From Saccharothrix sp. NRRL B-16314 (lineage in GTDB: Bacteria > Actinomycetota > Actinomycetes > Mycobacteriales > Pseudonocardiaceae): 64,000 bases of DNA. Positions 46,485 to 64,000 of this stretch are shown here, piece by piece. Location of the stretch: assembly GCF_000716595.1 (NCBI RefSeq), contig NZ_JNXC01000031.1, positions 1 through 64,000 of the forward strand. Direction: 5' to 3'. The notes beneath the pieces are model-generated. The model ran no database searches. It saw only the letters and a list, made by a program, of their open reading frames with translations, and was not told the DNA's origin. Made by a program: the position numbers and the translations under genes. The first letter of the stretch is position 1. The number at the start of each line of letters is the position of its first letter.

Positions 46485-47231
46485 ATGACGAGCTTGATCA
46501 ACACCGACGCGGCCCGGTTTCGGGTTCTCCTGGTGGCTCCGCACCGGTTGGTGAGATTGGGAATACGGGCCGGGCTGGAAAGGTCGGCCCGAATCGAGGT
46601 GGTGGCCGAAGCATCGACCACCGATGAAGTACCGGCCGCCCTGCTCACATCTACCCCGTCCGTCATCATCGTCGATCCCCGCGTTCCCGGAAAAGATCCG
46701 CTCCAGCTCGTCCGGATACTGCGCGGACTGTTCCGGAATCGGACGGCGCCCATTCTGGTGCTCGCCGACGAAGACGCCATGGACACCCGGGCGCTGCTCG
46801 AAATGGGAGTCCGCGGCGTGCTCCAGCACGGCTGTGACGAGCACGAACTGGCCAGCGCGGTCACTGAGATCGCCCTGGGCGGCGCGGTGTTCAGCTCGGA
46901 GGTGACCTGCCGGCTGCTGGACTGGTACCTGGACAGCGTCGGCCAGACGCCCCGTCGGCCACCGGCGGTGATAAACACCCTCACCCCCCGTGAGCTGGAC
47001 GTTCTGCTGTTACTCGCGACCGGCATGTCCAACAGCCAGATCGCCGAGAAGCTGACGTTGGGCCTCACCACCGTGAAATCGCACGTGTACCACCTGATGA
47101 AGAAGCTCGACCTGCCCGACCGGGCGAATGCGGTCGCGTTCGCGTACCAGTACGGACTTGTCGCCCGGCACGCCGCGCTGGAGGGGTGCAACCCGCCCGG
47201 GAACGGTCCGCGGTACCGATTATCCAACTGA
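46485..47231 (+). CDS. atypical NarL/LuxR-type response regulator
   Basis: A 248-residue DNA-binding regulator and the likely controller of the cluster. The C-terminal LuxR helix-turn-helix (166-225) is intact: NTLTPRELDVLLLLATGMSN and LTLGLTTVKSHVYHLMKKLD. The receiver domain is degenerate. The paired acidic residues after strand 1 are replaced by Ala18-Pro19 (VLLVAPHRLVRLGI), the conserved Lys is missing (GVRGVLQHGCD), and only the central Asp64 (IIVDPRVPG) remains. Phosphorylation-independent activity is therefore likely, as in other atypical regulators of antibiotic clusters. No histidine kinase is adjacent. ATG 46485 follows an AGGGGG ribosome site. Confidence 0.9.
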   Translation: MTSLINTDAARFRVLLVAPHRLVRLGIRAGLERSARIEVVAEASTTDEVPAALLTSTPSVIIVDPRVPGKDPLQLVRILRGLFRNRTAPILVLADEDAMDTRALLEMGVRGVLQHGCDEHELASAVTEIALGGAVFSSEVTCRLLDWYLDSVGQTPRRPPAVINTLTPRELDVLLLLATGMSNSQIAEKLTLGLTTVKSHVYHLMKKLDLPDRANAVAFAYQYGLVARHAALEGCNPPGNGPRYRLSN

Positions 47232-47246
47232 TCGTCGCCGGTCGAC

Positions 47247-47277
47247 GATCACCCGCCGGTGATCCCGGTCGGTGATC
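47247..47277. promoter_or_regulatory. GATCACC/GGTGATC half-site cluster upstream of the scaffold gene
   Basis: GATCACC (47247-47253), GGTGATC (47258-47264) and GGTGATC (47271-47277) give one inverted repeat plus a direct repeat 13 bp apart. They lie directly after the regulator stop codon and 183 bases before the scaffold ATG. They could be LuxR-type binding sites or part of a terminator. Confidence 0.45.
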
Positions 47278-47324
47278 GGAAGTTCGACAGGATCCGCCCG
47301 ACGGCACCTACCCCGGACTGAGAC

Positions 47325-47360
47325 GGCCCGACCCGGTTCATTCCCCGGGCTGGGTCGGCC
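47325..47360 (+). terminator. hairpin between the regulator and the scaffold gene
   Basis: GGCCCGACCC (47325-47334) pairs with GGGTCGGCC (47352-47360), giving a 7-bp perfect stem plus a further 2 bp past a bulge. There is no T-tract. It could end the regulator transcript or act as a leader structure for the peptide gene. Confidence 0.4.
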
Positions 47361-47459
47361 CTGACCGAGAATCCGTTTCCAGGGGGAAGACGACCCCGGT
47401 CGTGAATAGTTACGGTCATCCTCACCACGAATCGCCTGACGGGGATGGAGCGACCGGGG

Positions 47460-47639
47460 ATGGCCGATCAGGAAACGAGTGAAGATATCGATGTCACGGC
47501 CGAGGACGTGCCGGTGACCCCACCGGACAATGTTCCGTCCGGCGCCGCGGAACCCGTGGACGACGAGGATGACGTCATCGAGGACCTCGAATTCCTCATC
47601 GACGACATCGAAGACCAGATCGCTCCACTCGGCCTGTAG
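47460..47639 (+). CDS. acidic 59-residue peptide, probable scaffold/precursor peptide
   Basis: A very small, highly unusual protein. Of 59 residues 21 are Asp or Glu, and there is no Lys, Arg, His or Cys. Ser/Thr occur only up to residue 27; residues 28-59 contain no Ser, Thr, Cys, Tyr or Trp. The C-terminal half (DDVIEDLEFLIDDIEDQI, then APLGL) would form an amphipathic acidic helix, as in leader regions of ribosomal peptides. ATG 47460 has a GGAG site 9 bases upstream; an in-frame ATG at 47445 lacks one. It lies 3 bases before the flavoprotein gene and heads the biosynthetic run. The lack of modifiable residues at its C-terminus argues for a scaffold to which amino acids are added rather than a classical core peptide (inference). 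Confidence 0.82.
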   Translation: MADQETSEDIDVTAEDVPVTPPDNVPSGAAEPVDDEDDVIEDLEFLIDDIEDQIAPLGL

Positions 47640-47642
47640 CAG

Positions 47643-48221
47643 ATGACCGAGACCGGCACGGTGCCCGCCGCCAGCGACCCGGTCCGCACCGAGGAAGCGC
47701 TGCCGCTGTACCGCTACTTCACCAGCACGGTCGCGCTGATCACCTCGGGCGCGGCCGACGCCGGCACGAACGTCATGGCCTGCGAGTGGACGTTCAACGT
47801 CTCCTACCGGCCACTGCGGATGATGTCACTGGTCAAGCGCGGGTCCTACACCCACGAGCTGATCTCGGCCGGCGGCGAGTTCGGCGTGAACATGTGCTCG
47901 GACGAGCAGGCCGCACTGGTCTCCTACGCGGGCAACTCGCACGGCCGGGAGGTCGTCAAGCTCGACGACCCGCTGTTCGCCGGAGGGATCTACACCGGCA
48001 AGCGGATCGGCGTGCCGATGCTGCGGGGCTGCGTGCTCAACCTCGAATGCGTGGTGGAGAGCACCGTCGAGATCGGCGAGCACACCGGGTTCGTCGGGCG
48101 CGCGGTCGCCGGTTTGGCCAACCGGTCCAAGCAGCCGCTGCTCTACAACCGCGGCCGGTTCTTCCGGCTGGGCGACCTCCTCGCCAAACCACCCGCGGCC
48201 GAGCCGGCCACCGGGGAATGA
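47643..48221 (+). CDS. flavin reductase-fold protein (FMN-binding split barrel)
   Basis: A 192-residue protein of the flavin-reductase-like/DIM6 family, which binds FMN or FAD and either supplies reduced flavin or acts as a flavoenzyme. Recognisable stretches are RYFTSTVALITSGAADAGTN (opening strand), WTFNVSYRPLRMMSLVKRGS, FGVNMCSDEQAALVSYAGNS and VPMLRGCVLNLECVVESTVE. ATG 47643 follows the scaffold stop by 3 bases, so translation is coupled one-to-one. It is the only redox tailoring candidate in the window, and might oxidise an aminoacyl group held on the peptide (inference). No partner monooxygenase is visible here. Confidence 0.85.
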   Translation: MTETGTVPAASDPVRTEEALPLYRYFTSTVALITSGAADAGTNVMACEWTFNVSYRPLRMMSLVKRGSYTHELISAGGEFGVNMCSDEQAALVSYAGNSHGREVVKLDDPLFAGGIYTGKRIGVPMLRGCVLNLECVVESTVEIGEHTGFVGRAVAGLANRSKQPLLYNRGRFFRLGDLLAKPPAAEPATGE

Positions 48222-48312
48222 GGCCACCTCCACCACCCGGTCGCAGGCCACCAGCACCGCCGACATGCCCACACGTCAACGCCACAGCCGTCGAACACCG
48301 ACAGGAGCCCAG

Positions 48313-50232
48313 ATGAACGACGCGGACATCCTGACGGCCACGAAGAGCGCCGCTCCGGTGGCCACCGACGCGGCCATGGTCGCCGAGCGCGTGACGGCCA
48401 TCTGCGACGCCGCCGCCGACGGCCGAAAAGGCCCGCGCAGCGCCATTTTCCTCGGCACGGTGCCGCTGCTCGACCTCGCCCGCGAGGCGGTCCGCGACGG
48501 ACGCGTCCTCGACGTCGACTGCGCCACCGGGGGCATGGACTCCTTGGTGCCGCTGCGGTCGCTGATCGAGGTCCTGGTGCCCGAGTTGCGCACCGACGCA
48601 CCGGACCTGCTCGACCGGTACTCGCCGGAACTGGTGGCGCTGCACCCCGACTTGGCGGACGTGCTGGACCTGCCCGTCGCCAGGCGGCTCACCCGGCTGG
48701 CCAACACCCCGTCGGAACGGCGCTCGCACCGGGAGTCCGAGCACCTGTTCCGCACGGTCAACGGCCTGGGCCGGCTCCTGCACGACCTGCTCGAACGGAC
48801 CGGTGCGCCCGTCGTGCTGGTGTGGCGGAACCTGCACGAGGCCGACGCGGCGACCCTGCTGGCGTTCCGCCGGTTGAGCCGCTGGGCCGACCAGGGCCAG
48901 ACCCGCCTGGTGTCGCTGGCGACGCTCGTCCCTGGCGGGATCCCGAACTCACCGCCCGCCGGCCTGCCCGCCGCGGAGCAGGCCTGCTTCGACTGGCCGG
49001 CGCACCACGCCCGGCTGCTCGACCTCGTCCGCGAGCAGTCCCTCGGCACCGAGGTGGCGGTGGAGTTCGACGCCGGCACCCCCGCCGGCACGACCCCGGC
49101 CCTGGGTCCGACGCCCATCGGTGAAGCGCTCCTGCTGCTGTCCATCGACGTCGAGCGCGGGTGCGCCCAGGCGATCCGCGCGATGGGCGCGGCCGCCTTC
49201 ACCCTGAACTACGAAGCGGTCCTCCAGCTCGCCGCGCACGTGATCGCGGCCGTGACCGGGCAGGAGGAACCGTTCGACGAGGCCAGGTTCGCCGCCGAGT
49301 GGGAGGCCGCCGCGCCCGAGGAGTACTACGCGGCCATCGAGTTCGCGGTGATCCGACCGGCCGACGTGCGGGACGTGCTCGCGGTGGCGTGGCGGGCGGC
49401 GGGCTTCGCCAACTCGTGCCTGGACGACCACGAGACCTCCCTCGCCTGCTACCGGCAGGCGCTGGGGCTCGCCGACACTCCCCTCCAGCGCGCTCGGGCC
49501 AGGATGTACCTGGGCCTCATCACCGGCAAGCGCCTGCGCCGCATCGCCGAGGCGGAGCAGCACCTCGACCAGGGCCTCGCCGAGATCGACGGCCGGGACG
49601 ACGAGGACGCGCGGCTGGAACGGTGCTGGCTGCTGAACGTGCGCGCCCTGATGGCGTTCCAGCAGCGCGACCACCGGCGGGCCATGCTGATGGTCCGCGA
49701 GGCCCGCGAGGTGATGCGCCCGCTGCACTCCAGCGAGGCGACCCACCTGAAGATCAACCTGATCTCGAACATCTCCGTGCTGCTGGAGAAGACCGGCAGA
49801 ACCGACAAAGCCGTCGCGCTGTGGCAGCAGTTCGCCGCGTTCCTCGGTCCTTCCAACGAGTTGTTCGCCAAGCACTACTACTTCCGGGAGGGCGGCCTGC
49901 GGCTGCTGGCCGGGAGGTCGGAAGACGCGCTGACGTCGTACCGGAACAGCTACGAGCAGTGCGTCCGCATCGACGACCCGTTCCACGCGGCGGTCGTCGC
50001 GCGGGCCGCCGGGTACGTGGCGCACCAGCTCGGGCGGCAGGACGAGGCCGTCGAGTGGTACGAGCGCGTGGTGCGGGCCGGTGAGGCGTGCGGCGACCAC
50101 GAGGCGCTGACCGCGGACCGAGGCACGCTCGCGTTCCTGTCGCAGGACGGCGGCAGCGCGCCGGTCCGGCCCGACACGAAGCTCAACCGGCCGTTCTCCC
50201 TCGTCAACACCTACCTTGCGGGTGAAGGGTGA
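48313..50232 (+). CDS. TPR protein with degenerate STAND-like domain (cluster twin B)
   Basis: A 639-residue cytoplasmic protein. Residues about 60-240 follow the layout of LuxR/STAND ATPases. VVLVWRNLHEADAATLLAFR matches their Walker B block (LDDLHWAD), but the acidic pair is changed to RN and no glycine-rich P-loop is visible, so ATP hydrolysis is doubtful. Residues about 370-620 are TPR-like (DDHETSLACYRQALGLADTP, GRTDKAVALWQQFAAFLGPS, GRQDEAVEWYERVVRAGEAC). There is no DNA-binding domain. It is a paralogue of the protein at 42968. AGGAG precedes ATG 48313. The GTG of the first LanB-type gene overlaps its stop, so it is co-translated with the ligases, perhaps as a scaffold or regulator (inference). 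Confidence 0.8.
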   Translation: MNDADILTATKSAAPVATDAAMVAERVTAICDAAADGRKGPRSAIFLGTVPLLDLAREAVRDGRVLDVDCATGGMDSLVPLRSLIEVLVPELRTDAPDLLDRYSPELVALHPDLADVLDLPVARRLTRLANTPSERRSHRESEHLFRTVNGLGRLLHDLLERTGAPVVLVWRNLHEADAATLLAFRRLSRWADQGQTRLVSLATLVPGGIPNSPPAGLPAAEQACFDWPAHHARLLDLVREQSLGTEVAVEFDAGTPAGTTPALGPTPIGEALLLLSIDVERGCAQAIRAMGAAAFTLNYEAVLQLAAHVIAAVTGQEEPFDEARFAAEWEAAAPEEYYAAIEFAVIRPADVRDVLAVAWRAAGFANSCLDDHETSLACYRQALGLADTPLQRARARMYLGLITGKRLRRIAEAEQHLDQGLAEIDGRDDEDARLERCWLLNVRALMAFQQRDHRRAMLMVREAREVMRPLHSSEATHLKINLISNISVLLEKTGRTDKAVALWQQFAAFLGPSNELFAKHYYFREGGLRLLAGRSEDALTSYRNSYEQCVRIDDPFHAAVVARAAGYVAHQLGRQDEAVEWYERVVRAGEACGDHEALTADRGTLAFLSQDGGSAPVRPDTKLNRPFSLVNTYLAGEG

Positions 50233-52604
50233 CCCAGTTGTCGCTCGACCCCACCGGGGTTCAGGAGGGGACCTCCGACTGGGCGCTGGTCCCTCTCGTC
50301 CTCATCCGCAGCACGGGTTTCAGCGCGAGCCTGCTGGACGCCGTGCGGACGCCGGACGCCGCCCAGGCGTGCGACCGGGTGGTGTCGTTGCGGCGCAGGG
50401 TCGCCGAGTTGCGCGTCGAGTTCAGCGAGGAGCTGTTCCCGACGGTGCTGGCGCGGGAGAGCGCCCGCGGCGCGGACCGCAAGCAGTTCAAGGAGTGGTA
50501 CAAGCTGCGGCGGCGGATCGAGCGCGGCGGCCAGACGTACCCGCTGCCCGCCGTGGTGGGCCTCTGGCCGGACGTGCTGCGGTGGGTGCAGGACTGGAAC
50601 AGCCTGCTGATGACGGTCGACAGCGCCACCGAAGAGGCCGCCGCGACGACCGAGCAGGACTGCGGGCGTGCTCGGCAGCGGCTGCGGGAGCTGGTCGCCG
50701 ACGAGCGGTTCGGCGAGGCGGTCTTCCTGTCCAGCCCCAGCATGCACGTGGGCCTGCGGCGGTACCTGGACACCCCGGAGGCCGAGCAGCGGCCACGCCT
50801 GCGCTCCCGTGAGCAGAAGCTGTACGGCTACCTCCAGCGGTTCACCGCGAAGAACGAGACGACCAGCTTCTTCGGTCCCGTCGACTACGCGGTGGTCGAG
50901 GACCAGCCGCACCCCGCGCTGCGGATGCACGCCACCGCGGGCGGGGTGCCGGCCCGGCGGCGGTCGCGCCTGGCGTACTGGGCCGTGCAGGAGCTGGCCG
51001 ACGCGGTCACGTCCGCCGAGAGCATCCGCCCGCACCTGCCCACCCGCCTCGCCGACACCTGGCGCGACGACGGCACCGCCCTGGTCAACGTGGTCAGCGG
51101 GCGCCGGGTGTCGCCGGACGCGCCCCGGCCGGCCGAGGCGGTGGAGCGGCGGCTGCTCCTGCCCACCGACGAACCGGACCCGCTGGGCCGGCTGCGCGAC
51201 TGGGTCGCCGGTCTCCCGGCCGACTGCGCCGGTCGAGCGCCCGCGCTGCACGTGGTGGACCGGTTCGCGGCGTTGGCCGCCCGGTACACGACGGCGCCGG
51301 TCGACGAGAAGATCCGGGTGCTCGCCGAGACCGAGGAGCTGTTCCACCGCACCACCGGCGCGGACCCGCGTCGCGGTGGCGGCACGATGTTCGCCGACCG
51401 AACCCTGTTCTACGACGAGGCCGTCGGTGACCTGACCACGGTCATCGGGCAGTCCATGGTGACCGACATCCGCGCCCGCATCCGGCCGGTGCTGGACCTC
51501 TGCGTCACGTTCAGCACGATCGTGCAGCGGGTGTGCGTGCGGCGGGCCACCGAGGTCGCGCTGCGGCTCGGCGGCGGTGGACCGGTCCCCTACCTGGCGT
51601 TCGTGCGCGAGATGGTCGCCACCGTCACCATGACCGACTGCCTGGCCGACCCCGAGGTGACCGCGTTCACCGAACGGCTCGCGGAGCTGGCCCGGACGCG
51701 GACGGTCGACGGGCGGATCGCGCTGGACGAGGCCGACCTGGCGCCGCTGCTGGTCCGCACGCCGGCCGGCACCGCCGTGTCACCCGACCTCTTCCTGCTC
51801 GCGGGCAGCACGGACGACCTCGCGGCCGGCGCGTACGAGGTGGTGGTCGGCGAGATCCACTACGGCTACCAGGTCTGGACGCACCTGCTGTCGTTCTGGT
51901 CCGCGCCGGACTGGCTGGCCGAGCAGATCGGCCGGCGGCTGCCGCCCGACCACGACCGGATCGCGTCCCTCGTGCACAAGCGCAAGCAGGGCAAGGCGTT
52001 CCCCAAGGAGCTGCCGGGTCTCAGCGTGGAGATGGGCGGCCGGTCGCGCAAGCCGCCGGAGCAGGTGCTGCGCGCGGCCGACCTGGAGGTCGTCCTGGCC
52101 GATGGCGCGCCGACCCTGCGGTCACTCGTCGACGGTCGGCCGGTGAGGTTGCACCCCGGCGACCCGCGCAACCCCGTGAGCTGGATCTTCGGCACGCCGC
52201 CGGTGATCACCCCGTCGATCCGGTCGGGTGAGCACACGCCCCGGGTCCACGTCGGCCGAGCCGTCCTCCAACGCGCGCACTGGCGGATCGACCCGGCGAT
52301 CCTGGAACCGGCGCGTTCCGCCGGCCGGCACGAGTCCATGATCCTCGTCCGGGAGCTGGCGGGCCGGATCGGGCTGCCGCAGCGGTTCTTCGTGCGCGTG
52401 CCGGGCGAGCGCAAGCCGTTCTTCGTCGCCCTGGACAGCATGATCGGCGTCGACTACCTGCTCGCGATGACGGCCGGCCAGGACGCCGCGGACATCACCG
52501 AAGCCCTGCCCGACACCGGTGACTGGTGGTTGCGCGCGGCCGACGGCGGGCGGCGCAGCTGCGAGTGGCGGATGACCTGGATCCACGGTGACGGCGATGG
52601 GTGA
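50229..52604 (+). CDS. LanB-type aminoacyl-tRNA-dependent ligase 1 (PEARL-like)
   Basis: A 791-residue protein of the lantibiotic-dehydratase N-terminal (glutamylation) domain family, lacking the SpaB_C elimination domain. It should use aminoacyl-tRNA to modify the peptide. Family blocks are IRSTGFSASLLDAV at the N-terminus, AKNETTSFFGPVDYA at residues 207-221, MFADRTLFYDEAVGD near 387, EVVVGEIHYGYQVW, RFFVRVPGERKPFFVALDS near 720, and EALPDTGDWWL with CEWRMTW at the end. GTG 50229 overlaps the upstream stop (GTGA). Family members ending here and paired with a scaffold peptide are peptide-aminoacyl-tRNA ligases. The amino acid added cannot be read from the sequence. Confidence 0.85.
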   Translation: MTQLSLDPTGVQEGTSDWALVPLVLIRSTGFSASLLDAVRTPDAAQACDRVVSLRRRVAELRVEFSEELFPTVLARESARGADRKQFKEWYKLRRRIERGGQTYPLPAVVGLWPDVLRWVQDWNSLLMTVDSATEEAAATTEQDCGRARQRLRELVADERFGEAVFLSSPSMHVGLRRYLDTPEAEQRPRLRSREQKLYGYLQRFTAKNETTSFFGPVDYAVVEDQPHPALRMHATAGGVPARRRSRLAYWAVQELADAVTSAESIRPHLPTRLADTWRDDGTALVNVVSGRRVSPDAPRPAEAVERRLLLPTDEPDPLGRLRDWVAGLPADCAGRAPALHVVDRFAALAARYTTAPVDEKIRVLAETEELFHRTTGADPRRGGGTMFADRTLFYDEAVGDLTTVIGQSMVTDIRARIRPVLDLCVTFSTIVQRVCVRRATEVALRLGGGGPVPYLAFVREMVATVTMTDCLADPEVTAFTERLAELARTRTVDGRIALDEADLAPLLVRTPAGTAVSPDLFLLAGSTDDLAAGAYEVVVGEIHYGYQVWTHLLSFWSAPDWLAEQIGRRLPPDHDRIASLVHKRKQGKAFPKELPGLSVEMGGRSRKPPEQVLRAADLEVVLADGAPTLRSLVDGRPVRLHPGDPRNPVSWIFGTPPVITPSIRSGEHTPRVHVGRAVLQRAHWRIDPAILEPARSAGRHESMILVRELAGRIGLPQRFFVRVPGERKPFFVALDSMIGVDYLLAMTAGQDAADITEALPDTGDWWLRAADGGRRSCEWRMTWIHGDGDG

Positions 52605-54642
52605 GCCGACGGCGTGGCGGCTGATGAGCCGCTTCATCCTGCGCAGCCCCGGTTTCCCGTTCCGCGCGCTGGACGGCTTGCGCTCGACCGCCACCTCGGA
52701 CCTGGAGGAACAGCGGGCGGCGTTGTGGGACCTCGCCGCGCAGCCGCTCGTCCAGGAGGCCATCTGGTTGTCGAACCCGGCCGTCTTCGAGAACGAGCTG
52801 TCGTCCTCGCACGCCACCGCCAACCGGTCGTCCAAGATCAAGCGGCGGGAGCGGCGGCTGTACACCTACCTGCAACGGCTGGCCGCGAAGAACGACACCA
52901 CGAGCTTCTTCGGCCCGTTGAACTACGGCCGGTTCGGCGATGAACCGGAGTTCAAGCTCGGTGCCGAGCGGATCGGCCGCCGCCGCGGCTTCGTGGCGTT
53001 CCGGGCCGTGGCCGAGCTGGCGGACCGCATCGGAGCCGAGCCGGAACTCCTGCCCCACCTGCGACCGCGTCGCGACCCGCTGCGCGACGCCGACGACCCG
53101 GTGCTCGCGTCGTGCGACGGGGAAGCGACGGTCGCCGAGCTCTGCGCGCGGTTGTCGCTGTCCCCCGAGGTGATCGGTGGGCTGGCGGCGGCCGGCCGGC
53201 TCCGGCTCGGGCCGCACCTCCCGGAGTCCGAAGTGGACCCGCTCGGGCACCTGATCGCCGAGCTGCGCCGGATGCCCGAGAGCGGCACGACGCTGCGCTG
53301 GCTGACCGAACTGACCGCGCTCGCCGACTCGGCGGCCGAGTTCGCCGCGACGCCGTGGCCCGAGCGCAGGGCGGTCCTGGATCGCGCGGACCGGCACTAC
53401 GCCCGGCTCACCGGACGCACGGCGCGGGAGGGCGACGGCCGGATGTTCCGCGACCGCACCCTGTTGTACGAGGAGTGCCGCGGCGACGTCGAGAGGTTGA
53501 CGCTGGGCGCCGCCCAGGCCGACGCCATCGTAGGCGCGCTCGGGCCGGTGCTCGACCTCTGCGCGTCCTACAGCTCGTTGATCCACGACGACCTCCAGTC
53601 CGCCGGACGCGCGCTGTTCGACCAGCTGGGCGGTGGGCGTCCGGTGTCGTTCCCCCGTTTCGTGGCGGCGTGGCGGCGTGAGCACCCCGACGGCACGCCG
53701 ACGCCGCTGGCCGATCGTCTGCGGGACGCGTTGACCGCCCTGGTGACGGACACGACCGACACCGCCGTCCTGTCCGCGGACGACGTGCGGGCGCTCTGCC
53801 CACCATCACCCGATCCCGTGGTCGCGTCGCCGGACCTGATGATCGCCGCCGCCGACTTCGACGCCGTCGCGGACGGGAGGTTCAAGCTCGTGCTCGGCGA
53901 AGTCCACCACGGCATCCAGCCGGCGGGCTGGATGCTGTCCGTGGCCGACGACGCCGACGAGTGGCAGGCGGAACTGGCCGGGCACAACCCGGCCGGCTCG
54001 GCGAACCTGGTCTTCCGCCGCCGGATGAAGCTCGCGCCGCCGGAGTTCCCCGGCCCGAGCGTCCAGCTGAGCGGCACGGCCGCCAACACCGACCGCCTCG
54101 ACGCGGCACAGCTCCGGGTCGCCCTCGACGGCGACCGGCTGGTGCTCCGGGTCGGCGAGGACGGTCGGCCGATCCGGTTCCGGCCGCCGACGTTCGGCGT
54201 TCCGTTCGACCTGTTCGCGGTGTTCGAGTGCTTCTCCTTCCCCACCGTGCGACCGCCGGCGATCCGGCTGGGCGACCGCACGCCCCGGGTGGAGATCGGC
54301 GGGCTCGTGTACCAGCGGCGGCGCTGGGAACTGGCGAGCGCGGACATCCCCGGCCGGGACCGCTCGGCCGACCTGCTCGCGGGGGCCGCCGCGTTGCGGG
54401 ACCGGTTCGGCCTGCCCGAACGGGTCTTCGTCCGCAGCCCGGCCGAGCCGAAGCCGGTGTACGTCGACCTGACGATCCCGTTCGCGGTGGAACTGCTGGC
54501 GGTGCTCGCCCGCGGCTGCGACCGCCTGGTGGTCGAGGAGATGCTGCCCGGCCCGGAAGACCTGTGGCTGCACCGCGAGGACGGACCGTACTGCGCCGAG
54601 CTGCGCATGGTGATGAGCCGGGAAGGCGGTGCGGGCCGATGA
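52597..54642 (+). CDS. LanB-type aminoacyl-tRNA-dependent ligase 2, shortened
   Basis: A 681-residue paralogue, about 110 residues shorter than the other three. The missing part lies between the opening block (MSRFILRSPGFPFRALDG) and the AKNDTTSFFGPLNYG motif, which here is at residues 97-111 instead of 185-221. The later blocks are intact: MFRDRTLLYEECRGD, VLGEVHHGIQPAGWML, RVFVRSPAEPKPVYVDLT, and EMLPGPEDLWLH with CAELRMVM at the end. ATG 52597 overlaps the preceding gene by 8 bases. It may be a minimal active ligase or a specialised partner. Whether the missing tRNA- or peptide-binding helices abolish activity is open. Confidence 0.82.
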   Translation: MGEPTAWRLMSRFILRSPGFPFRALDGLRSTATSDLEEQRAALWDLAAQPLVQEAIWLSNPAVFENELSSSHATANRSSKIKRRERRLYTYLQRLAAKNDTTSFFGPLNYGRFGDEPEFKLGAERIGRRRGFVAFRAVAELADRIGAEPELLPHLRPRRDPLRDADDPVLASCDGEATVAELCARLSLSPEVIGGLAAAGRLRLGPHLPESEVDPLGHLIAELRRMPESGTTLRWLTELTALADSAAEFAATPWPERRAVLDRADRHYARLTGRTAREGDGRMFRDRTLLYEECRGDVERLTLGAAQADAIVGALGPVLDLCASYSSLIHDDLQSAGRALFDQLGGGRPVSFPRFVAAWRREHPDGTPTPLADRLRDALTALVTDTTDTAVLSADDVRALCPPSPDPVVASPDLMIAAADFDAVADGRFKLVLGEVHHGIQPAGWMLSVADDADEWQAELAGHNPAGSANLVFRRRMKLAPPEFPGPSVQLSGTAANTDRLDAAQLRVALDGDRLVLRVGEDGRPIRFRPPTFGVPFDLFAVFECFSFPTVRPPAIRLGDRTPRVEIGGLVYQRRRWELASADIPGRDRSADLLAGAAALRDRFGLPERVFVRSPAEPKPVYVDLTIPFAVELLAVLARGCDRLVVEEMLPGPEDLWLHREDGPYCAELRMVMSREGGAGR

Positions 54643-57014: not shown

Positions 57015-58336
57015 ACCCGCTCCTGCCGCACGACGCGGCGCTCGCGGCGGTCGGTGCCGCACCCGCACCGGGCGACCTCTTCGGCGAGCTGTTCGCGGAG
57101 CACCGGGATCACGTCGTGGTGGAGGTGGCCGGCGGCGAGGTGCGGACTTGCAGGCTGCGCCAGGAACGCGGCGTGGGCATCCGGCGGGTGACGCCGCACG
57201 ACGTCCGGCACCTGCACGTCGACCACCTCGACCCGGACGCCCTCCCGTCGTTGACCCGGGCGCTCCGGCACGACGAGCCGCTGCGCGACCTGCCGCGCCA
57301 CTCCGACGTCGCCGAGTTCGACGTGGCGCCTTCGGTCCGCGCGGGGTTGGAGGCGGAAGCCGAGGCCCTGCGCGTGTCGCAGGAGGTGATGGTCCGGGTC
57401 GTGACCGGCGTGCAACGGGTTCTCATCGCACGCGCCGACACGGGTGTGACCGAGGAGAGCCGTCCGTACGCGGCGGTGCACGTGCACGCCGTCGCCCGTC
57501 GCGGCAAGCAGGTCCGCCGCAGCCGCCGGTCCGTCGGCGCCACCGACATCCACGCGATCCTCGCGCGAGGGCTGCACCTGGAGATCGCCAGGGTGGCCGG
57601 TGAGGCGGCCGAACGGCAGGTCGACGCGGTCGCCGCGCCGTCCGGCGAGTTCCCGGTGGTGCTCGGTCCGGGCAGCCCCGCCATGCTCGTCCACGAGGCG
57701 TGCGGGCACGCGCTGGAGGCGGACCTGGCCGGCCGGGAGGGCTCCGCCTACGGCGCGCTGCTCGGCCGCCGGGTGGCCGATCCGATCGTCACGCTGGTGG
57801 ACGATCCCGCGCTGCCCGGTGACTCGCCCCTGTACGGGGTGGACGACGAAGGCGAGCCCGCCCGTCCGGTGACGCTGGTCGAACGCGGTGTCGTGCGGAG
57901 CTTCCTGCGCGATCGGCGGCACGGCGGCTCGGGTCACGGGCGGCGGCTGGGTTACGCGTACCCGCCGCTGCCCCGGATGGCGAGCACGGTGATCGCCGCG
58001 GGCGAGGAGCCACCGGAGGACATCATCGCGGCGACCGACCGCGGGGTGTACGTCCAGTCGATCGGCGGCGGCGACACCGACATGGGCTCCGGCCGGTTCA
58101 ACCTCCAGGTGGACGAGGGTTTCCTGATCGAGAACGGTCGGATCGGCGCGCCGATCCGCGGCGCGGTGCTGTCCGGGCGCGGGCCCGACGTGCTGGCCGC
58201 GATCGACCGCGTCGGCTCGGACCTGCACGTGCTCGGCCACACGTACCTGTGCCGCAAGCTCGACCAGTTCCCGCTGGTGGTCAACGTCGGCCAGCCGACG
58301 ATCCGGGTGTCGAAGCTCGCGGTGTGGGGAGGGTGA
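57011..58336 (+). CDS. TldD-like metalloprotease subunit
   Basis: A 441-residue protein of the TldD/PmbA family and the catalytic partner of the following gene. The zinc motif HExxxH appears as HEACGHALEAD (His228, Glu229, His233). The C-terminal block TYLCRKLDQFPLVVNVGQPT with VSKLAVWGG keeps the Cys that serves as third ligand in TldD. TldD/TldE heterodimers degrade unfolded peptides and mature ribosomal peptides such as microcin B17. Here they would trim or release the modified C-terminus of the scaffold (inference). The ATG overlaps the ligase 3 stop. The protein is slightly shorter than housekeeping TldD and clearly a cluster-specific copy. Confidence 0.9.
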   Translation: MNPLLPHDAALAAVGAAPAPGDLFGELFAEHRDHVVVEVAGGEVRTCRLRQERGVGIRRVTPHDVRHLHVDHLDPDALPSLTRALRHDEPLRDLPRHSDVAEFDVAPSVRAGLEAEAEALRVSQEVMVRVVTGVQRVLIARADTGVTEESRPYAAVHVHAVARRGKQVRRSRRSVGATDIHAILARGLHLEIARVAGEAAERQVDAVAAPSGEFPVVLGPGSPAMLVHEACGHALEADLAGREGSAYGALLGRRVADPIVTLVDDPALPGDSPLYGVDDEGEPARPVTLVERGVVRSFLRDRRHGGSGHGRRLGYAYPPLPRMASTVIAAGEEPPEDIIAATDRGVYVQSIGGGDTDMGSGRFNLQVDEGFLIENGRIGAPIRGAVLSGRGPDVLAAIDRVGSDLHVLGHTYLCRKLDQFPLVVNVGQPTIRVSKLAVWGG

Positions 58337-58340
58337 CGCG

Positions 58341-59621
58341 ATGATCGAGTCCGCCACGGCGACCGTGACCGCCGCGCTCGACGCGGGAGCGACCGACGCC
58401 GAGGTCTACGCCGAGCACGGCACGACGCACCGCGTGATCACGCACACCGAGCGGCTGAGCGAGAGCCGCGGCCACCGCACGGAAACCGCGCTGCGCGTGT
58501 GGTCCGACGGGCGCGGCTGCCTGCTGACGACCGTGGGCACGGGGTCGACGGCGCTCGCACGGGCAGCGGTCACCACCGCGCGGGCGCACGGGCTCCGCGG
58601 CGTCGCGTTCATCCGGGATGCCGGCTCGCGGCCGGAACCGCCCGCGCAACTGCCCGCGCCGGCGCTGGACGACCGTCCGGCGAGCCTGGTGAGGACCGTG
58701 GCGGGGAAGGTCCGCGAGCTGCCGCTCCCCCAGCCGCACCTGCTCAGCATCGGCTACACCGGGCAGCACACGCGCCGCCTGCTGGTGAACTCCCGCGACC
58801 TGGCCGTGGCGCAGGACGTGACCACGCACGAGGTGTGGTGCTGGTTGGAGGGCGGCAGCGGCCACGTCCGGTTCGCCGCGGTCGCGGACACGCTCGACGC
58901 CCTCGTCGCCGAAGAACTCGCCGGTGAGCTCATCGACCAGGCCGCCTGCCTGGTCGCCGGCACACCGGTCGAGGCGGGCACGTGGCCCGTGCTGTTCGGC
59001 CCCGGGCCGGCGGCCGACCTCGCCTGGGCGTTCGCGCGGCTGCTCAGCGCCCAGCACGTGCTCGGCGACCTCCGCGCGCTGCGCGACCGCGTCGGCCGCC
59101 GGATCGCCTCATCCGCGGTGACCCTGATCGACGACGTGACCCACCCGTTCGACGACGAAGGCACTCCCGCCGAGACGGTCACCCTGATCGAGGGCGGTCG
59201 TCTCAGGGGCTTCCTGCACTCGCTGGAAACGGCCCACGGCCTGGACATGCCGCCGAACGGGAAGGCGACCCGCGCGGAACTGTGGCGCCCGCCGCTGCCC
59301 GCCCCGGCACGCGCGTACCTCAAGCCGGGCACGGCGACCGGCGAAGAACTCCGGTCCGGGCTCGGCACCGGTCCGATGATCACCGGGCTGCTGCGGTCCG
59401 GCCGGTTGCAGAGCGGCACCGGGCGCTTCACCGCCATCGGCTACGGCTGGTGGCTGCGCGACGGGGTGCCCGTCCGGCGGATCAGCGGTGTCCAGGTGTC
59501 CGCGGGGGTGTTCGAGCTGTTGCGCTCGATCGTCGCCTGCGGTGACGACCTGCGGTTCACGCCGCTCGCGGGTGGCGCCGGCGCGCCGAGCGTGCTGATC
59601 TCCGGGATGCAGGTGGGCTGA
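58341..59621 (+). CDS. TldE/PmbA-like protease subunit
   Basis: A 426-residue PmbA/TldE homologue and partner of the TldD-like protein 4 bases upstream. It has the family blocks DAEVYAEHGTTHRVITHTER, LLVNSRDLAVAQDVTTHEVW and SSAVTLIDDVTHPFDDEGTP, but no HExxxH, as is normal for the non-catalytic subunit. Residues near the end (SGVQVSAGVFELLRSIVACG, then VLISGMQVG) form the family C-terminus. The complete pair, encoded between two LanB-type genes, makes proteolytic release a core step rather than a neighbouring housekeeping function. Confidence 0.88.
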   Translation: MIESATATVTAALDAGATDAEVYAEHGTTHRVITHTERLSESRGHRTETALRVWSDGRGCLLTTVGTGSTALARAAVTTARAHGLRGVAFIRDAGSRPEPPAQLPAPALDDRPASLVRTVAGKVRELPLPQPHLLSIGYTGQHTRRLLVNSRDLAVAQDVTTHEVWCWLEGGSGHVRFAAVADTLDALVAEELAGELIDQAACLVAGTPVEAGTWPVLFGPGPAADLAWAFARLLSAQHVLGDLRALRDRVGRRIASSAVTLIDDVTHPFDDEGTPAETVTLIEGGRLRGFLHSLETAHGLDMPPNGKATRAELWRPPLPAPARAYLKPGTATGEELRSGLGTGPMITGLLRSGRLQSGTGRFTAIGYGWWLRDGVPVRRISGVQVSAGVFELLRSIVACGDDLRFTPLAGGAGAPSVLISGMQVG

Positions 59622-59623
59622 CC

Positions 59624-62029
59624 ATGGCGACGTGGAGCTTCCTGCCGCAGGTCATCGTGCGGGGCACCGGGTTCCCGGTCGAGCTGCTGGAGCGGCTGCG
59701 GTTCAGCGGCACCGTGCGGCTGTTCGAGCAGGTCGCCGACGCGGAGGCGGCGATCCGCGCGTCGGCGGGCGAGGTCATCCCGCTGATCCGGGACGCCGTC
59801 GTGGTGGCGAAGGCCGACGGTGACACCGCCGCGCTGCGGGTGCTGTCGGACATCCGCGGCAGGGTGACGCGGCTGCTGCCGACCCGTGCCGCGGTCGACG
59901 TGCTCGCCGGCCGGCTGGACGAGTGGAACCAGGCGCTCGCCGAGCGGGACGCGTTGCTCGACAAGGCGCGGGAGACCTTCGCCGCCGAGTTGACCGAACG
60001 CCGCCGCAGGCTGCGCGCCATCGTCGGCGACGAGCTGGTGAAGGACGCGTTGTTGTTGTGCAGCAGGGACATCCGGGCGGCCGTCGAGCGTTATCACGAC
60101 GCGTGGCCGGAGCGGCGCACCAGCTCGGTCCGCAAGCTCGAACGCCGCCTGGTGTCGTACCTGCAACGGCTGTGCGCGAAGAACGAGACGCAGAGCTTCT
60201 TCGGCCCGCTGAACTACGGCCGCCTCGACCCTGCCGCCACCGACAACCTGACCATCCGGCGGAGTCCCGACCGGATCGCGGCCCGGGAGAGCTTCCCGTC
60301 CCAGTGGACGGCGGAACGCCTGGCGCTCCGGATCGCCGAGGACCCGGCGAGCCACCCGCTGCTCCAGCCCCGCCGGGCGACGTGGTGCCGGCTCGACGGC
60401 GACGAGCTGGTCTTCCCCCTGGGCGACGACACCTACCGCCTCGAACCGGCCGATCTCGTCCTGTTCCAGGCCGCGGACGGCCGTAGGACCGTCGCCGAAC
60501 TGGCCGACGACCTCGGCGAACCGTGGCCGGAGACGTGGCAGCGGGTGCGTCGGCTCAGCCGGAAGCGCGCGCTCGTCCTCGGCCCGATCATCCCGCCTGA
60601 CCTGCCCGACCCGCTCGCCTGGCTGATCGACTGGCTGGACCGGTTCCCGCCGGGTGCCCCTCCGCGCGACCGGTGGGAGCCCGAACTGCGCTCGTTGCAC
60701 GCCGCGATCCGGTCGTTCGCGCACAGCCCGGTCGAGGACCGCCGGGAGCTGCTGGCGGACATCGAGGCGCAGGTCGTCACGTTGTGCGAAGCCGACGCCC
60801 GCCGGCACGGCGGACGGATGTACGCCGACCGCGCCCCGCTGTTCGAGGAGTGCCGGGGCGATCTCGCCGAGTTCGTCATCGGCGGCGACCTGCACCGGGT
60901 GATCACCGAACGGCTGGCGCCGGTGCTCGACCTCGCGACGACGTTCGGGATCGCCGAGCAGCACCGTGATCACGCCGCCGCCGTGGCCCTGGTCCGGCGG
61001 CACGGCGGTGACGAGATGCCGTTGCTCGGCTACCTGGCGGCGTTGGCCCGGGAACCGGTGCACCACGGCCCGCACCCGGAGTTCGACCGCCTCCTCGACA
61101 CCCTCGACGCGCTGGTCGCCGACCACACCGAGGGCAACGTGGCCCGCATCCCTGGCGACGCACTGCCTACCGGCGGCGCGCCGGGCCGGTACCTGGTCAC
61201 GTCGGTCGACCTGATGCTCCGGGCCCGCGACGTCGAGGACGTGCGGGCGGGCCGGTTCGAGCTGGTCCTGGGCGAGATGCACCCGCAGGCGCTGTCCTGG
61301 GTGTTCCCGAGCGCGCACATGCTCGAGCCGGACCTGCGCGCGGAGCTGGGTGCCGGTCTGGCCGCCGGGATCGCGGCCCAACCGGACGCCGGCCTCGCGG
61401 CGCGGTTCGTGCACACCCGGTCGAACAAGATCTTCCCGTACCCCCTGCCCGGTCACGTGGTCGAGCTGCGGCCCCGTGCCGCCTTCGCCGACGCGGTGCC
61501 CGCCGCGGAGGTGACCGTCCGCGCCGGGGACGGCGAGGTGGGCTGCTGGTCTCCGAGCACGGGCGAGCTGCGGTTCTACCCGCCGTTGCGCCGCCGGTCC
61601 GGGCAGCTGGACCCCGTCGCGTCGCTGTCGTTCCCGTCGGTGCACCTGCCCAGGATCGGCCTGGGCACGCACGTCCCCCGCGTGGAGGTCGACGGTGTGG
61701 TGGTCCAGCGGGAGCGCTGGGACCTGCCCGCCGACACGCTCGGCGTGACCGCGAAGGACGACTTCGAGCTGTTCCACTCGGTGTGGCGGACCGCGCGGGA
61801 CCTCGGTCTGCCGGACCAGGTGTACGTGCGGGTGCCGCAGGAGCCGAAGCCGGTGTTCGTGGACTTCGGCAACGCGTTCCTGGTCGAACTGCTCGCCCAC
61901 CTCGGCCGGTTGAGCACCGGCATGACCGTCAGCGAGGCGTTCCCCGGCACCGAAGGCGCCTGGCTGGACGACGCCGCCGGGCGGTTCCACTGCGAATTGC
62001 GGCTGATCGTGGTCGGAGGCCCACAATGA
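59624..62029 (+). CDS. LanB-type aminoacyl-tRNA-dependent ligase 4
   Basis: An 801-residue family member and the closest relative of ligase 3 (shared VRGTGFPVELLER and identical position of the AKNETQSFFGPLNYG motif at 185). Other blocks are MYADRAPLFEECRGD, FELVLGEMHPQALSWV, QVYVRVPQEPKPVFVDFGN and EAFPGTEGAWL with CELRLIVV at the end. ATG 59624 follows the TldE stop by 2 bases and its stop overlaps the MFS start. No elimination domain. Four ligases in one transcription unit imply up to four different tRNA-dependent additions, or repeated use with different specificity (inference). Confidence 0.85.
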   Translation: MATWSFLPQVIVRGTGFPVELLERLRFSGTVRLFEQVADAEAAIRASAGEVIPLIRDAVVVAKADGDTAALRVLSDIRGRVTRLLPTRAAVDVLAGRLDEWNQALAERDALLDKARETFAAELTERRRRLRAIVGDELVKDALLLCSRDIRAAVERYHDAWPERRTSSVRKLERRLVSYLQRLCAKNETQSFFGPLNYGRLDPAATDNLTIRRSPDRIAARESFPSQWTAERLALRIAEDPASHPLLQPRRATWCRLDGDELVFPLGDDTYRLEPADLVLFQAADGRRTVAELADDLGEPWPETWQRVRRLSRKRALVLGPIIPPDLPDPLAWLIDWLDRFPPGAPPRDRWEPELRSLHAAIRSFAHSPVEDRRELLADIEAQVVTLCEADARRHGGRMYADRAPLFEECRGDLAEFVIGGDLHRVITERLAPVLDLATTFGIAEQHRDHAAAVALVRRHGGDEMPLLGYLAALAREPVHHGPHPEFDRLLDTLDALVADHTEGNVARIPGDALPTGGAPGRYLVTSVDLMLRARDVEDVRAGRFELVLGEMHPQALSWVFPSAHMLEPDLRAELGAGLAAGIAAQPDAGLAARFVHTRSNKIFPYPLPGHVVELRPRAAFADAVPAAEVTVRAGDGEVGCWSPSTGELRFYPPLRRRSGQLDPVASLSFPSVHLPRIGLGTHVPRVEVDGVVVQRERWDLPADTLGVTAKDDFELFHSVWRTARDLGLPDQVYVRVPQEPKPVFVDFGNAFLVELLAHLGRLSTGMTVSEAFPGTEGAWLDDAAGRFHCELRLIVVGGPQ

Positions 62030-63273
62030 TGGACGGGTATCGAGGGCTGTTGGCGCACCGGGACTTCCGGCTGCTCTGGCTCGGGCAGGTGACGTCCCAG
62101 TTCGGTGACGCCTGCTACGAGATCGCCATGGTGTGGTTGGTGTTGCAGCTGACCGGCCAGGACTACTTCAGCGTCGGCCTGGTGATCTTCGCGCGGCTGG
62201 CGCCGTACGTGGTCATCGGGCCGTTCGCCGGGGTGTACGTCGACCGGTGGGACCGGAAGCGGACCATGGTCGTGACGGATGTCGTCCGCGGCTTCCTCGT
62301 GCTGATCGTGCCGCTGCTGCACGTGGTGGGCGCGTTGCAGGTCTGGCACGTGGCCGCGGTGGCGTTCACGCTCACCACGTGCCGGACCCTGTTCAACCCG
62401 GCGCTCCAGGCGTCGATCCCGCGGATCGTGGACGAGTCCCGGCTGGTCGGCGCGAACGCCCTGATCCAGGCCAGCGGGCAGACCGCGGCGATCGCCGGTC
62501 CCGCCGCGGCCGGGCTGCTGCTCACGTGGATCTCCGCGGACGCGCTGTTCGTCCTGGACGGCCTGACGTTCCTGTTCTCCGCGGCCATGATCGCCCTGCT
62601 GGCACTGCACGCGCTGCCGCGCGACCGCAGCACGGAAGGCACGGTCCGCACCGAACTCGCCGGGACGATCCGGACCCTGAGCCGGAAACGCCCGGTGCTG
62701 TGGTCGGTCGTGCTGTACGCGGTCGGGCTGCTCACCATCGCGGGTTCCTACCGCGTCGGGCTCGCGGCGCTGTCCGAGAACGTGCTCGGCGGCGGCTCGG
62801 CCACGTACGGCCTGCTGATCGCCGCTCTCGCCGGCGGCACCGTGTTGGGCGCGCTCGTGCTCGGCGCCACGCAGCCGCGCCGGCCGACCGTGGTGATCTT
62901 CGGCGGGTGGGCGTTGTGGGGCGTCTGCTTCGCGGTGCTGGGTCTCGGCGGGTCGCTGGTGCTCGCGCTGGTCCTGGCGGTGGTCTCCGGGATCGGCGAG
63001 TCCGCGGCGACCGTGTTCACCACGGCGCTCGTGCAACGGGCGATACCGCCCGAGCAGCTGGGCAAGGTGTTCGGGCTGTGGTCGCTGCTCTGCTCCACCG
63101 GCGAATCGCTGTCCGGCGTGCTCACCGGCTACGGCCTCGGCCGCCTGGACGTGCGGACCGTCCTCGGGATCGCCGGTGCGGCGACCCTCGTCATGAGCCT
63201 GTTCGGGTTGGCCGTCACCGCCCGGCAGGACACCGGAGTACCGACCGAGACGCCGTCTGGAGGGCAGGGATGA
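62026..63273 (+). CDS. MFS efflux transporter (EntS/MFS_3 type)
   Basis: A 415-residue membrane protein with about 12 helices. The start LLAHRDFRLLWLGQVTSQFG, the loop GVYVDRWDRKRTMVVTDVVR and the region FNPALQASIPRIVDESRLVG are typical of exporters of siderophores and small natural products. The ATG overlaps the ligase 4 stop. It probably exports the finished small molecule and gives self-protection. Its type, a single-component drug/siderophore exporter rather than a LanT-type ABC peptide transporter, fits a small released product better than a long peptide. Confidence 0.9.
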   Translation: MMDGYRGLLAHRDFRLLWLGQVTSQFGDACYEIAMVWLVLQLTGQDYFSVGLVIFARLAPYVVIGPFAGVYVDRWDRKRTMVVTDVVRGFLVLIVPLLHVVGALQVWHVAAVAFTLTTCRTLFNPALQASIPRIVDESRLVGANALIQASGQTAAIAGPAAAGLLLTWISADALFVLDGLTFLFSAAMIALLALHALPRDRSTEGTVRTELAGTIRTLSRKRPVLWSVVLYAVGLLTIAGSYRVGLAALSENVLGGGSATYGLLIAALAGGTVLGALVLGATQPRRPTVVIFGGWALWGVCFAVLGLGGSLVLALVLAVVSGIGESAATVFTTALVQRAIPPEQLGKVFGLWSLLCSTGESLSGVLTGYGLGRLDVRTVLGIAGAATLVMSLFGLAVTARQDTGVPTETPSGGQG

Positions 63274-64000
63274 CACCGGACCTGTACACCCTGAGCTACT
63301 GGGTCAAGTACGGGCACGCGGAATCGGCCGCCGTGCACACCGCGGCCCGCCTCGGCCTCCCGGACGTGCTGCGGTCCGACCCCGGTCTCACCGACGAAGG
63401 GCTGGCCGAGCGCACCGGCTGCACGCCGCACGCGGCTCGTGTGCTGCGGAACGTGCTGCGGCTCGGCGGTGCGCCACCCGACCCGGAGGCGTTGGAGGAA
63501 GTGCGGACGCGCGCGAACGTCGCGGCGAAGCGGTGGCCCGTGGTGGGTGACATGGTCACCGCGTTGCGCGCGGGCGATCACGCCGAGCTGTCCTCGTGCT
63601 ACCGCGACCTGCCGCCTCCGGGAGGCAACTGGCTGCTGGACCGGGCCGACCACGGCTACCTGCGCGCCCGCGTGCTCAGCGCGGCGGCGGAAGTCGGACT
63701 GCTGGCGGCGTTGGTCGACGGCCGCACGCCCGACCTGGCCGCACGGCTCGACCTACCCGCGCCGTCGCTGGCCGTGCTGACGGACGCGTTGACGCGGCTC
63801 GGCGTCATGCGGCACGGCACGCACGACCTCGCGCCCTCGTTGCGCGAGGCCTTGTCCGCGCCACGGGCGCTCAGGACGTACCTGCTCGGGGCGCAGCTCG
63901 CGCACCGGTTCTGGGACGCGCTGGGCGACCTGGACGACGTCGCGCGCGGCGGCGGGCCGACGTTCGACCTGCTCGACCCCGACGTGGCCGGCCGGTACTA
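63270..64000 (+). CDS. O-methyltransferase-like protein, C-terminus beyond the window
   Basis: The first 243 residues of a protein that starts at ATG 63270, overlapping the MFS stop. Two successive winged-helix dimerisation segments are visible: HTAARLGLPDVLRSDPGLTD with RTGCTPHAARVLRNVLRLGG, and RARVLSAAAEVGLLAALVDG with LPAPSLAVLTDALTRLGVMR. They resemble the N-terminal domain of plant-type O-methyltransferases. The duplication is unusual. The SAM-binding domain would follow right of the edge, so the methyltransferase call is a prediction. As the last visible gene of the cluster it suggests methylation of the product, and shows that the cluster continues beyond the window. Confidence 0.7.
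   Translation, partial: MTPDLYTLSYWVKYGHAESAAVHTAARLGLPDVLRSDPGLTDEGLAERTGCTPHAARVLRNVLRLGGAPPDPEALEEVRTRANVAAKRWPVVGDMVTALRAGDHAELSSCYRDLPPPGGNWLLDRADHGYLRARVLSAAAEVGLLAALVDGRTPDLAARLDLPAPSLAVLTDALTRLGVMRHGTHDLAPSLREALSAPRALRTYLLGAQLAHRFWDALGDLDDVARGGGPTFDLLDPDVAGRY

Follow-up and report, generated by a model that had tools for sequence, protein, structure and literature searches.

A 13-gene operon of Saccharothrix sp. NRRL B-16314 that likely builds a tryptophan-derived product on a scaffold peptide with five PEARL-type ligases

A conserved operon at the edge of the window

The stretch analyzed here (the window, 64,000 bp) covers the opening 64 kb of contig NZ_JNXC01000031.1 (89,943 bp) of Saccharothrix sp. 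NRRL B-16314, and contig numbering and window numbering are the same. A preliminary description of the window had proposed that its right-hand end holds a natural-product cluster of the peptide aminoacyl-tRNA ligase (PEARL) type, with four tRNA-dependent ligases. We found there an operon of 13 genes, encoding, in order, a scaffold peptide, a flavin reductase, a tetratricopeptide repeat (TPR) protein, the ligases P1, P2, and P3, TldD, TldE, the ligase P4, a major facilitator superfamily (MFS) protein, the methyltransferase MT1, the ligase P5, and a second methyltransferase-like protein, MT2. On balance, we think it probable that this operon builds a Trp-derived, methylated indole-quinone on the C terminus of the scaffold and then cuts the product off, a reading in which every chemical step is inferred from the observed genes, their order, their conserved residues, their orthogroups, and their presence or absence in related clusters.

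The genes of the preliminary description are all there at the sizes that it gave (791, 681, 791, and 801 amino acids [aa] for P1 to P4), and the intergenic distances from the TPR gene to MT2 all fall between −8 and +4 bp. Its four ligases do lie inside the window, but a fifth, P5, sits just outside. MT1 ends at 64649, beyond position 64000, and is followed by the overlapping P5 and MT2 genes; reading to the right of the window for further tailoring genes, as the preliminary description had advised, gave MT2 in addition to P5. The features are as follows.

46485..47231, plus strand: LuxR-type response regulator, possible pathway regulator (PF00196, PF00072)
47460..47639, plus strand: scaffold peptide, 59 aa, C-terminal end EDLEFLIDDIEDQIAPLGL (NF033737 below cut-off; conserved EDLEFLIDDIEDQIAPLG)
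47643..48221, plus strand: flavin reductase-like protein (PF01613; 49-50% identical copy in Actinoplanes flavus)
48313..50232, plus strand: TPR protein of the BhaC1/AmmC1 flavoenzyme family (K406/N486/K623; AlphaFold2 model)
50229..52604, plus strand: ligase P1, orthogroup C, 791 aa (PF04738; clade with ultrafast bootstrap support [UFB] of 100)
52597..54642, plus strand: ligase P2, orthogroup D, 681 aa, predicted Ala ligase of the BhaB1 group (PF04738; UFB 100)
54639..57014, plus strand: ligase P3, orthogroup B, 791 aa, predicted Trp ligase of the BhaB7/AmmB2 group (PF04738; UFB 99)
57011..58336, plus strand: TldD-like protease subunit (PF19289; HEACGH at residue 228)
58341..59621, plus strand: TldE-like protease subunit (PF19289; no HExxxH)
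59624..62029, plus strand: ligase P4, orthogroup F, 801 aa (PF04738; clade of six, UFB 100)
62026..63273, plus strand: predicted MFS exporter (PF07690)
63270..64649, plus strand: O-methyltransferase MT1 (PF00891 on the full gene; crosses the window edge at 64000)
64646-67102, plus strand, outside the window: fifth ligase P5, 818 aa (PF04738)
67096-68235, plus strand, outside the window: methyltransferase-like MT2 (weak methyltransferase matches)

TldD and TldE both match PF19289, with the HExxxH motif confined to TldD, as in a heterodimeric protease.

The cluster is intact and conserved. All 13 genes recur in identical order in A. flavus, and because that order is kept, the operon is more than a chance array. 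Enzyme identities between the two range from 43 to 57%, the exception being MT2 (35% over part of its length). Among the matches listed, a Saccharothrix metagenome-assembled genome has the locus tags of the scaffold (HOV94_32820), P1 (32835), and P2 (32840) in fitting order. When one genome per species (84,980 species) was scanned by pattern, 36 loci with P1 relatives emerged, and A. flavus was the one with the whole set. The best-scoring P1 matches listed from 199 related genomes are about 30% identical, and among the matches listed from 354 genomes of the A. flavus family, the flavin reductase was found at an E value of ≤1e-25 in A. flavus only. P5 has at least seven other relatives at 46 to 62% identity, the next standing at 31%, and its A. 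flavus copy is not recognizable among the matches listed. The cluster type looks rare, and searches of the openly accessible literature listed no description of one, subscription papers lying mostly outside their reach.

The scaffold peptide resembles AmmA and BhaA

The scaffold is acidic and contains no Lys, Arg, or Cys; Ser, Thr, and Cys are absent from its last 32 residues. Its EDLEFLIDDIEDQIAPLGL end is like those of AmmA and BhaA, and it aligns with BhaA (..DFDLEEIEDKVAPLAL) and AmmA* (..EFDLDEVESKIAPLALA), whose sequences are from PMC9850906. An 18-residue stretch, EDLEFLIDDIEDQIAPLG, is identical in all seven aligned family members, three of which end in GL and four in G, while their N-terminal halves diverge. 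Over this stretch plus one residue, 7 of 19 codons differ synonymously from those of A. flavus and no residue changes. The motif and the neighborhood thus mark an acidic scaffold of the AmmA/BhaA type, even though the NF033737 cut-off is not reached; the preliminary description had noticed the acidic 59-residue peptide but overlooked this likeness. With BhaA as the query, 398 genomes of its class gave a single match, in Anoxybacillus, and none from A. halodurans itself. The scaffold genes of two Streptomyces-genus clusters (L089 and L095) continue beyond APLALA to ...ARW, an encoded C-terminal Trp.

Five ligases carry the residues of PEARLs

PF04738 is present in P1 to P5, and Pfam finds an elimination domain in no operon gene. 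For P5, the evidence is a score of 76.4 bits in one scan and a precomputed domain; Pfam hmmscan gave no score. At 10 conserved positions read from a 93-row ligase alignment, all five ligases have the consensus residue every time. Nine of these positions were equated, by spacing, with R34, Y205, R208, R429, D558, E575, R715, E813, and R815 of BhaB7, residues whose binding of ATP, the peptide, and the CCA end of the tRNA has been shown or modeled for TglB and BhaB7 (PMC11962472, PMC11117183). In BhaB7, D558, E575, R715, E813, R815, and R34 are of the ATP-GRASP type, and R208, Y205, and R429 bind CCA (PMC11962472); the Asp and the last Arg set PEARLs apart from split LanBs, which have Tyr and Leu there (PMC11117183). 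The earlier proposal of PEARL-type ligases acting on the scaffold peptide is therefore supported, and for all five ligases, by residues whose equivalence to those of TglB and BhaB7 is drawn from spacing.

P2 is shorter than the other four by about 90 to 100 residues near the N terminus of the alignment. A search of the PDB with the single sequence of P1 gave no match. Elsewhere in the genome are two more ligases of ~700 aa with the PEARL E-x-R motif (C8:110707-112794 and C8:115575-117692); within 60 kb around them no TPR, TldD/E, oxidase, or Amm10-like partner was found, and a scaffold was not looked for. Among the matches listed, all but 1 of 24 genomes from the same genus have a ligase-like match to P1, and several of these matches lie in open frames of ~2,000 aa.

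Orthogroups predict Ala, Trp, and ring-aminating ligases

Clusters were compared in a 15-row matrix made up of this strain, 10 of the 36 loci with P1 relatives, chosen as multi-ligase clusters and one per group, and four of the five genomes from a further search; the 13 comparators are the matrix minus this strain and A. flavus. An Acidobacteriota locus with one lone ligase and the stretch MYX2 were left out, and comparator gene starts are those of a simple gene caller. The ligase trees held the 15 clusters and 15 of 77 database relatives of P1, minus one short Anoxybacillus ligase fragment. In the Anoxybacillus sediminis cluster (L044), one ligase is split over two overlapping frames.

Every one of the 15 clusters contributes a single ligase to the group of P3 (B; UFB 99), and 14 of the 15 contribute to that of P5 (A; UFB 78; FastTree support, 0.995). 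P2 falls with ligases of Paenibacillus, Anoxybacillus, Rhizobium, and Pseudovibrio (group D, UFB 100), P1 with three actinomycete clusters (group C, UFB 100), and P4 in a group of six (F, UFB 100). P1 also groups loosely with the ligases at the positions of BhaB2 to BhaB4 (UFB 63). In a further group, E (UFB 100), every comparator is represented once, and this strain and A. flavus are not represented.

Two anchors tie these groups to named enzymes. The first is S500, a Streptomyces-genus cluster whose genes can be matched to the amm numbering used in the text of PMC12424672. It has a protein without a known family, which we take as Amm10, a single ligase, TldD (Amm12), a 286-aa gene with no Pfam match in the place expected of TldE (Amm13), an oxidase of the DAO type as Amm14, and, as Amm15, a PF13468 protein. 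In the S500 TPR protein, the K/N/K spacing is that of AmmC1, shifted by 12. Since S500 fits the amm numbering, the three ligases before Amm12 are AmmB1, AmmB2, and AmmB3, corresponding to groups A, B, and E. The second anchor, Paenibacillus polysaccharolyticus, has seven ligases in addition to a BhaA-like gene, and the K391/N472/K654 of its TPR protein are BhaC1's own numbers; by order, group E is its fifth ligase (BhaB5) and group B its seventh (BhaB7). A second Paenibacillus ligase is nearly as good a fit to BhaB7 in absolute spacing, and the choice between the two was made on the 17-residue D-to-E spacing and on gene order. Both anchors agree with the pairing of AmmB2 with BhaB7 (Trp) and of AmmB3 with BhaB5 (Gly) in PMC11117183. 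BhaB1 adds the Ala that is missing from BhaA (PMC9850906, PMC12945691), and in Paenibacillus BhaB1 would be the ligase encoded between the BhaC1-like protein and the scaffold, a ligase in whose group P2 lies. On this orthology, for which gene order and residue numbering serve as anchors, P3, from the group named AmmB2/BhaB7 by gene order, is predicted to be a Trp ligase, P2 an Ala ligase, and P5 an AmmB1-like ring-aminating ligase.

The TPR protein is a likely tryptophan hydroxylase

The preliminary description had listed the TPR protein but overlooked its membership in the BhaC1/AmmC1 flavoenzyme family. BhaC1 is a TPR protein with flavin mononucleotide (FMN) and no recognizable flavin domain (PMC9850906), and the quinone forms a cross-link with its Lys391 (PMC11117183). 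K406, N486, and K623 align with the Paenibacillus residues that bear the BhaC1 numbers K391, N472, and K654, and these residues, together with the family match, place the protein among these flavoenzymes, in a third clade outside those of AmmC1 and BhaC1 (the last tree was made without a degenerate Paenibacillus TPR protein). Because the three residues are kept but the clade is separate, a role as hydroxylase of a peptide-borne Trp is likely rather than shown.

With the AlphaFold2 model (mean predicted local distance difference test score, 84.4), Foldseek returned 1,584 hits, of which the best 50 comprise TPR proteins, other helical-repeat proteins like them, and a single STAND ATPase; no flavoprotein is among them, an absence that carries no weight. 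A STAND-TPR structure, 6mfv, ranks sixth, and 2 of 13 relatives of the protein have a weak AAA_16 match. The N-terminal part may be a degenerate STAND/AAA ATPase, and the FMN site might lie in the old nucleotide pocket.

An amination module is missing and three genes are private

The group E ligase, which by the anchors is the Gly ligase of the AmmB3/BhaB5 group, the glycine oxidase (Amm14/BhaG), and the Amm10-like protein each occur in all 13 comparators and in neither the cluster of this strain nor that of A. flavus. The profiles were seeded from 9 of the 13 comparators for the oxidase and from 6 of the 13 for Amm10, and the remaining loci of the 36, mostly myxobacterial, were outside this test. 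Neither profile scored above 60 bits in positions 44001-89943 of the contig or in 55 kb of A. flavus. A whole-genome oxidase search had no match on the cluster's contig, and the Amm10-like protein had no match in this genome or that of A. flavus, in a search run with no positive control, so that this blank proves nothing by itself. The NADPH-FMN quinone reductase (Amm17/BhaH, PF03358), present in 10 of the 13 comparators and so not universal, is likewise absent from the same stretches of both genomes.

None of the comparators yielded a relative of the flavin reductase, MT1, or MT2; the profiles for all three derive from the sequences of this strain and A. flavus, and presence in these two is by construction. 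Comparators can have methyltransferases of other kinds, and S500 does.

A proposed pathway and its alternatives

In the pathway that we favor, P2 would add Ala to ...APLGL, and P3 would then add Trp. The TPR flavoenzyme would hydroxylate the indole toward a hydroxyquinone, with reduced FMN probably supplied by the flavin reductase, for which reduction of quinone intermediates is an alternative predicted role. P5, as a member of the AmmB1 orthogroup, would contribute one ring nitrogen from an aminoacyl-tRNA. P1 and P4 would add further residues, one of them possibly a tag needed by TldD/TldE, as the Arg added by AmmB4 is the tag for TldD/TldE release in ammosamide biosynthesis. TldD/TldE would release the product, MT1 (of the O-methyltransferase family) and MT2 would methylate it, and the MFS protein would export it. 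With Leu-tRNA in vitro, AmmB1 gives the amine and 4-methyl-2-oxovalerate, and its authors suggest a dual activity (PMC11117183), which would explain a pathway without a glycine oxidase; it is conceivable, by analogy, that an AmmB1-group ligase operates without the oxidase. Since the operon lacks a gene for the amine-releasing oxidase, we predict a product distinct from the known ammosamides.

Several points weigh against this pathway. The abstract of PMC11117183 describes the oxidase as a requirement for the nitrogens that come from Gly and Leu. The known substrate of AmmB1 has already been aminated via the Gly route, which is absent here. Within the AmmB1 group, P5 is closer to the ligases at the BhaB6 position (UFB 100), for which no described activity was found. 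The closest grouping of the TPR protein (UFB 71) is with a paralogue that bha-type clusters of Bacillota and Proteobacteria have in addition to the BhaC1 type. P4 is intact although the scaffold encodes Leu, and a ligase for a missing Leu should be idle here. Pfam detects no M20 dipeptidase like Amm19 in the operon, and the scaffold matches NF033737 (Amm_Lyn_leader) at an E value of 0.004 and 17.2 bits, against a cut-off of 30 bits. Finally, the AmmB and BhaB enzymes were placed by gene order and residue numbering, not by their own sequences or the published cluster figures.

The TPR protein might instead act on another peptide-borne residue or form no quinone, the operon then specifying a pearlin pathway of other chemistry that shares its scaffold and ligases with ammosamide. 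We consider this unlikely, if worth keeping in view. It would suit a TPR protein that lies outside both the AmmC1 and BhaC1 clades, a cluster that lacks the glycine oxidase, the Amm10-like protein, and the PF03358 reductase, and a flavin reductase, MT1, and MT2 that have no counterpart in the comparators; it sits poorly with the retention of K406, N486, and K623, with that of the Trp-ligase orthogroup member P3, and with the closest TPR paralogues, which adjoin an AmmB1-group ligase as AmmC1-type proteins do.

It is improbable that the strain has an ordinary pyrroloiminoquinone pathway with the glycine oxidase and quinone reductase encoded elsewhere in the genome. Relatives of DAO-type FAD oxidases do exist off-cluster (best E value, 6e-19; 36% identity), and a cassette neighboring the A. 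flavus cluster has one DAO-type gene that scores 33 bits with the oxidase profile (PF01266). Yet neither cluster has a member of the Gly-ligase orthogroup, no Amm10-like protein was matched in either genome in the search described above, and the oxidase is in the cluster in every comparator; the reductase search was not genome-wide. Least credible, by a wide measure, is glutamylation and dehydration by split LanBs: PF04738 and the match of a profile of P1 relatives to the split LanB TbtB (PDB 6ec7/6ec8; E value, 2.3e-20) recall such enzymes, but a class I lanthipeptide or thiopeptide was ruled out by the PEARL-specific Asp and Arg of all five ligases, by the lack of an elimination domain in the operon, and by a scaffold with no Ser, Thr, or Cys in its last 32 residues, the latter two being checks that the preliminary description had itself named.

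Scaffold length is associated with the ligase set

All nine clusters whose scaffold gene stops short of APLALA, this strain and A. flavus included, have at least one ligase of group C, D, or F, whereas none of the five whose scaffold gene encodes APLALA has such a ligase; these five have one to four ligases of other groups (Fisher's P = 0.0005, which overstates the association because the clusters are related). Group D is present with all three of the other scaffolds that are one residue short. Group F, that of P4, accompanies five of five scaffolds that are two residues short, that of A. flavus among them, none of the three other one-short scaffolds, and none of the five full ones; it is also present in this strain, which is one short (APLGL), has all three groups, and so falls outside the simple form of the rule. 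P4 might be a Leu ligase.

A broader reading, which we offer tentatively and with more doubt than conviction, is that the operon represents a separate pearlin lineage from which the amination module (Gly ligase, glycine oxidase, and Amm10) has gone and in which a truncated scaffold is rebuilt by nontemplated tRNA-dependent ligases before Trp is added, leading to a methylated amino-indolequinone; ligase sets across the superfamily would then be readable from the residues missing in the scaffold gene. If this is true, a scaffold one residue short would call for the BhaB1 group, and one two residues short would call for the P4 group with the P1 or P2 group.

Neighboring DNA

Just left of the operon is a subtilase-family gene (PF00082; 44671-46245, minus strand) with no sign of belonging to it. 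No relative of the LuxR-type regulator was seen in the gene list around the A. flavus cluster. To the right, a convergent minus-strand block starts at 68204. The contig between 68204 and 80295 has genes for an anthranilate/ADIC synthase-like protein, a DhbA-like dehydrogenase, an Asn synthase, a ketosynthase-like protein, and AMP-ligase/ACP proteins, with a relative of AvaA6 (3-aminoavenalumate diazotase) beyond, and looks like a separate aminobenzoate or diazo cluster. The minus-strand block (68204-78367) was considered as part of the pathway, its Asn synthase recalling Amm20, and was rejected, no relatives having been found around the A. flavus cluster. The cassette beside the A. flavus ligases (L075:6790-12948) encodes a Lys/Orn N-monooxygenase, the DAO oxidase, a MetRS-like class I synthetase, and an amino-acid permease, and we take it to resemble hydrazine-forming cassettes. 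The N-N-bond flavor common to the two neighborhoods is perhaps coincidence.

Relation to known systems

The ammosamide cluster (amm) of Streptomyces sp. CNR-698, compared here through amm-like clusters and papers and not through its own sequence, shares with the operon an AmmA-like scaffold, the TPR flavoenzyme family, the predicted AmmB1 and AmmB2 groups, TldD/E, a methyltransferase, and a transporter. It has four PEARLs and the TldD/E pair Amm12/13 (PMC12424672), so the earlier view that four ligases around one protease pair matched no characterized pathway does not stand. The present operon has five ligases instead of four, has no AmmB3-group Gly ligase, Amm14 oxidase, Amm10, Amm17 reductase, Amm19 dipeptidase, or halogenase, and has a scaffold ending in APLGL where AmmA* has APLALA. 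The bha cluster of Bacillus halodurans C-125, whose product is not known and which was compared through a bha-like Paenibacillus cluster, shares a scaffold short of the Ala that precedes Trp, the predicted BhaB1 (Ala) and BhaB7 (Trp) groups, and a TPR flavoenzyme paralogue; BhaB5 (Gly), the BhaG oxidase, and BhaH have no equivalent here, whereas the flavin reductase and two methyltransferase-like genes are found here. Lymphostin (lym) of Salinispora is linked by NF033737, the one NCBIfam model for ammosamide and lymphostin leaders, which matches the present scaffold weakly; by description, its pathway has a nonribosomal peptide synthetase-polyketide synthase line (PMC9505594), and the operon has none. 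In the 3-thiaglutamate pathway (tgl), a PEARL also extends a scaffold peptide from which the product is cut off, but tgl is set apart, again by description, by a Cys-adding ligase and other tailoring chemistry.

Because the Gly-ligase group, the glycine oxidase, and Amm10 are absent, the operon would stand outside the characterized ammosamide/bha type, though it would work in the same way, with a scaffold, ligases, a TPR flavoenzyme, and release by TldD/E. PEARLs are a young enzyme class with few pathways worked out. A cluster that keeps the predicted Trp-ligase and AmmB1-type groups and drops the oxidase module would be a natural experiment on the purpose of that module, and the match between shortened scaffolds and ligase groups, if it holds, would provide a rule for predicting which ligase adds what, an open problem for PEARLs.

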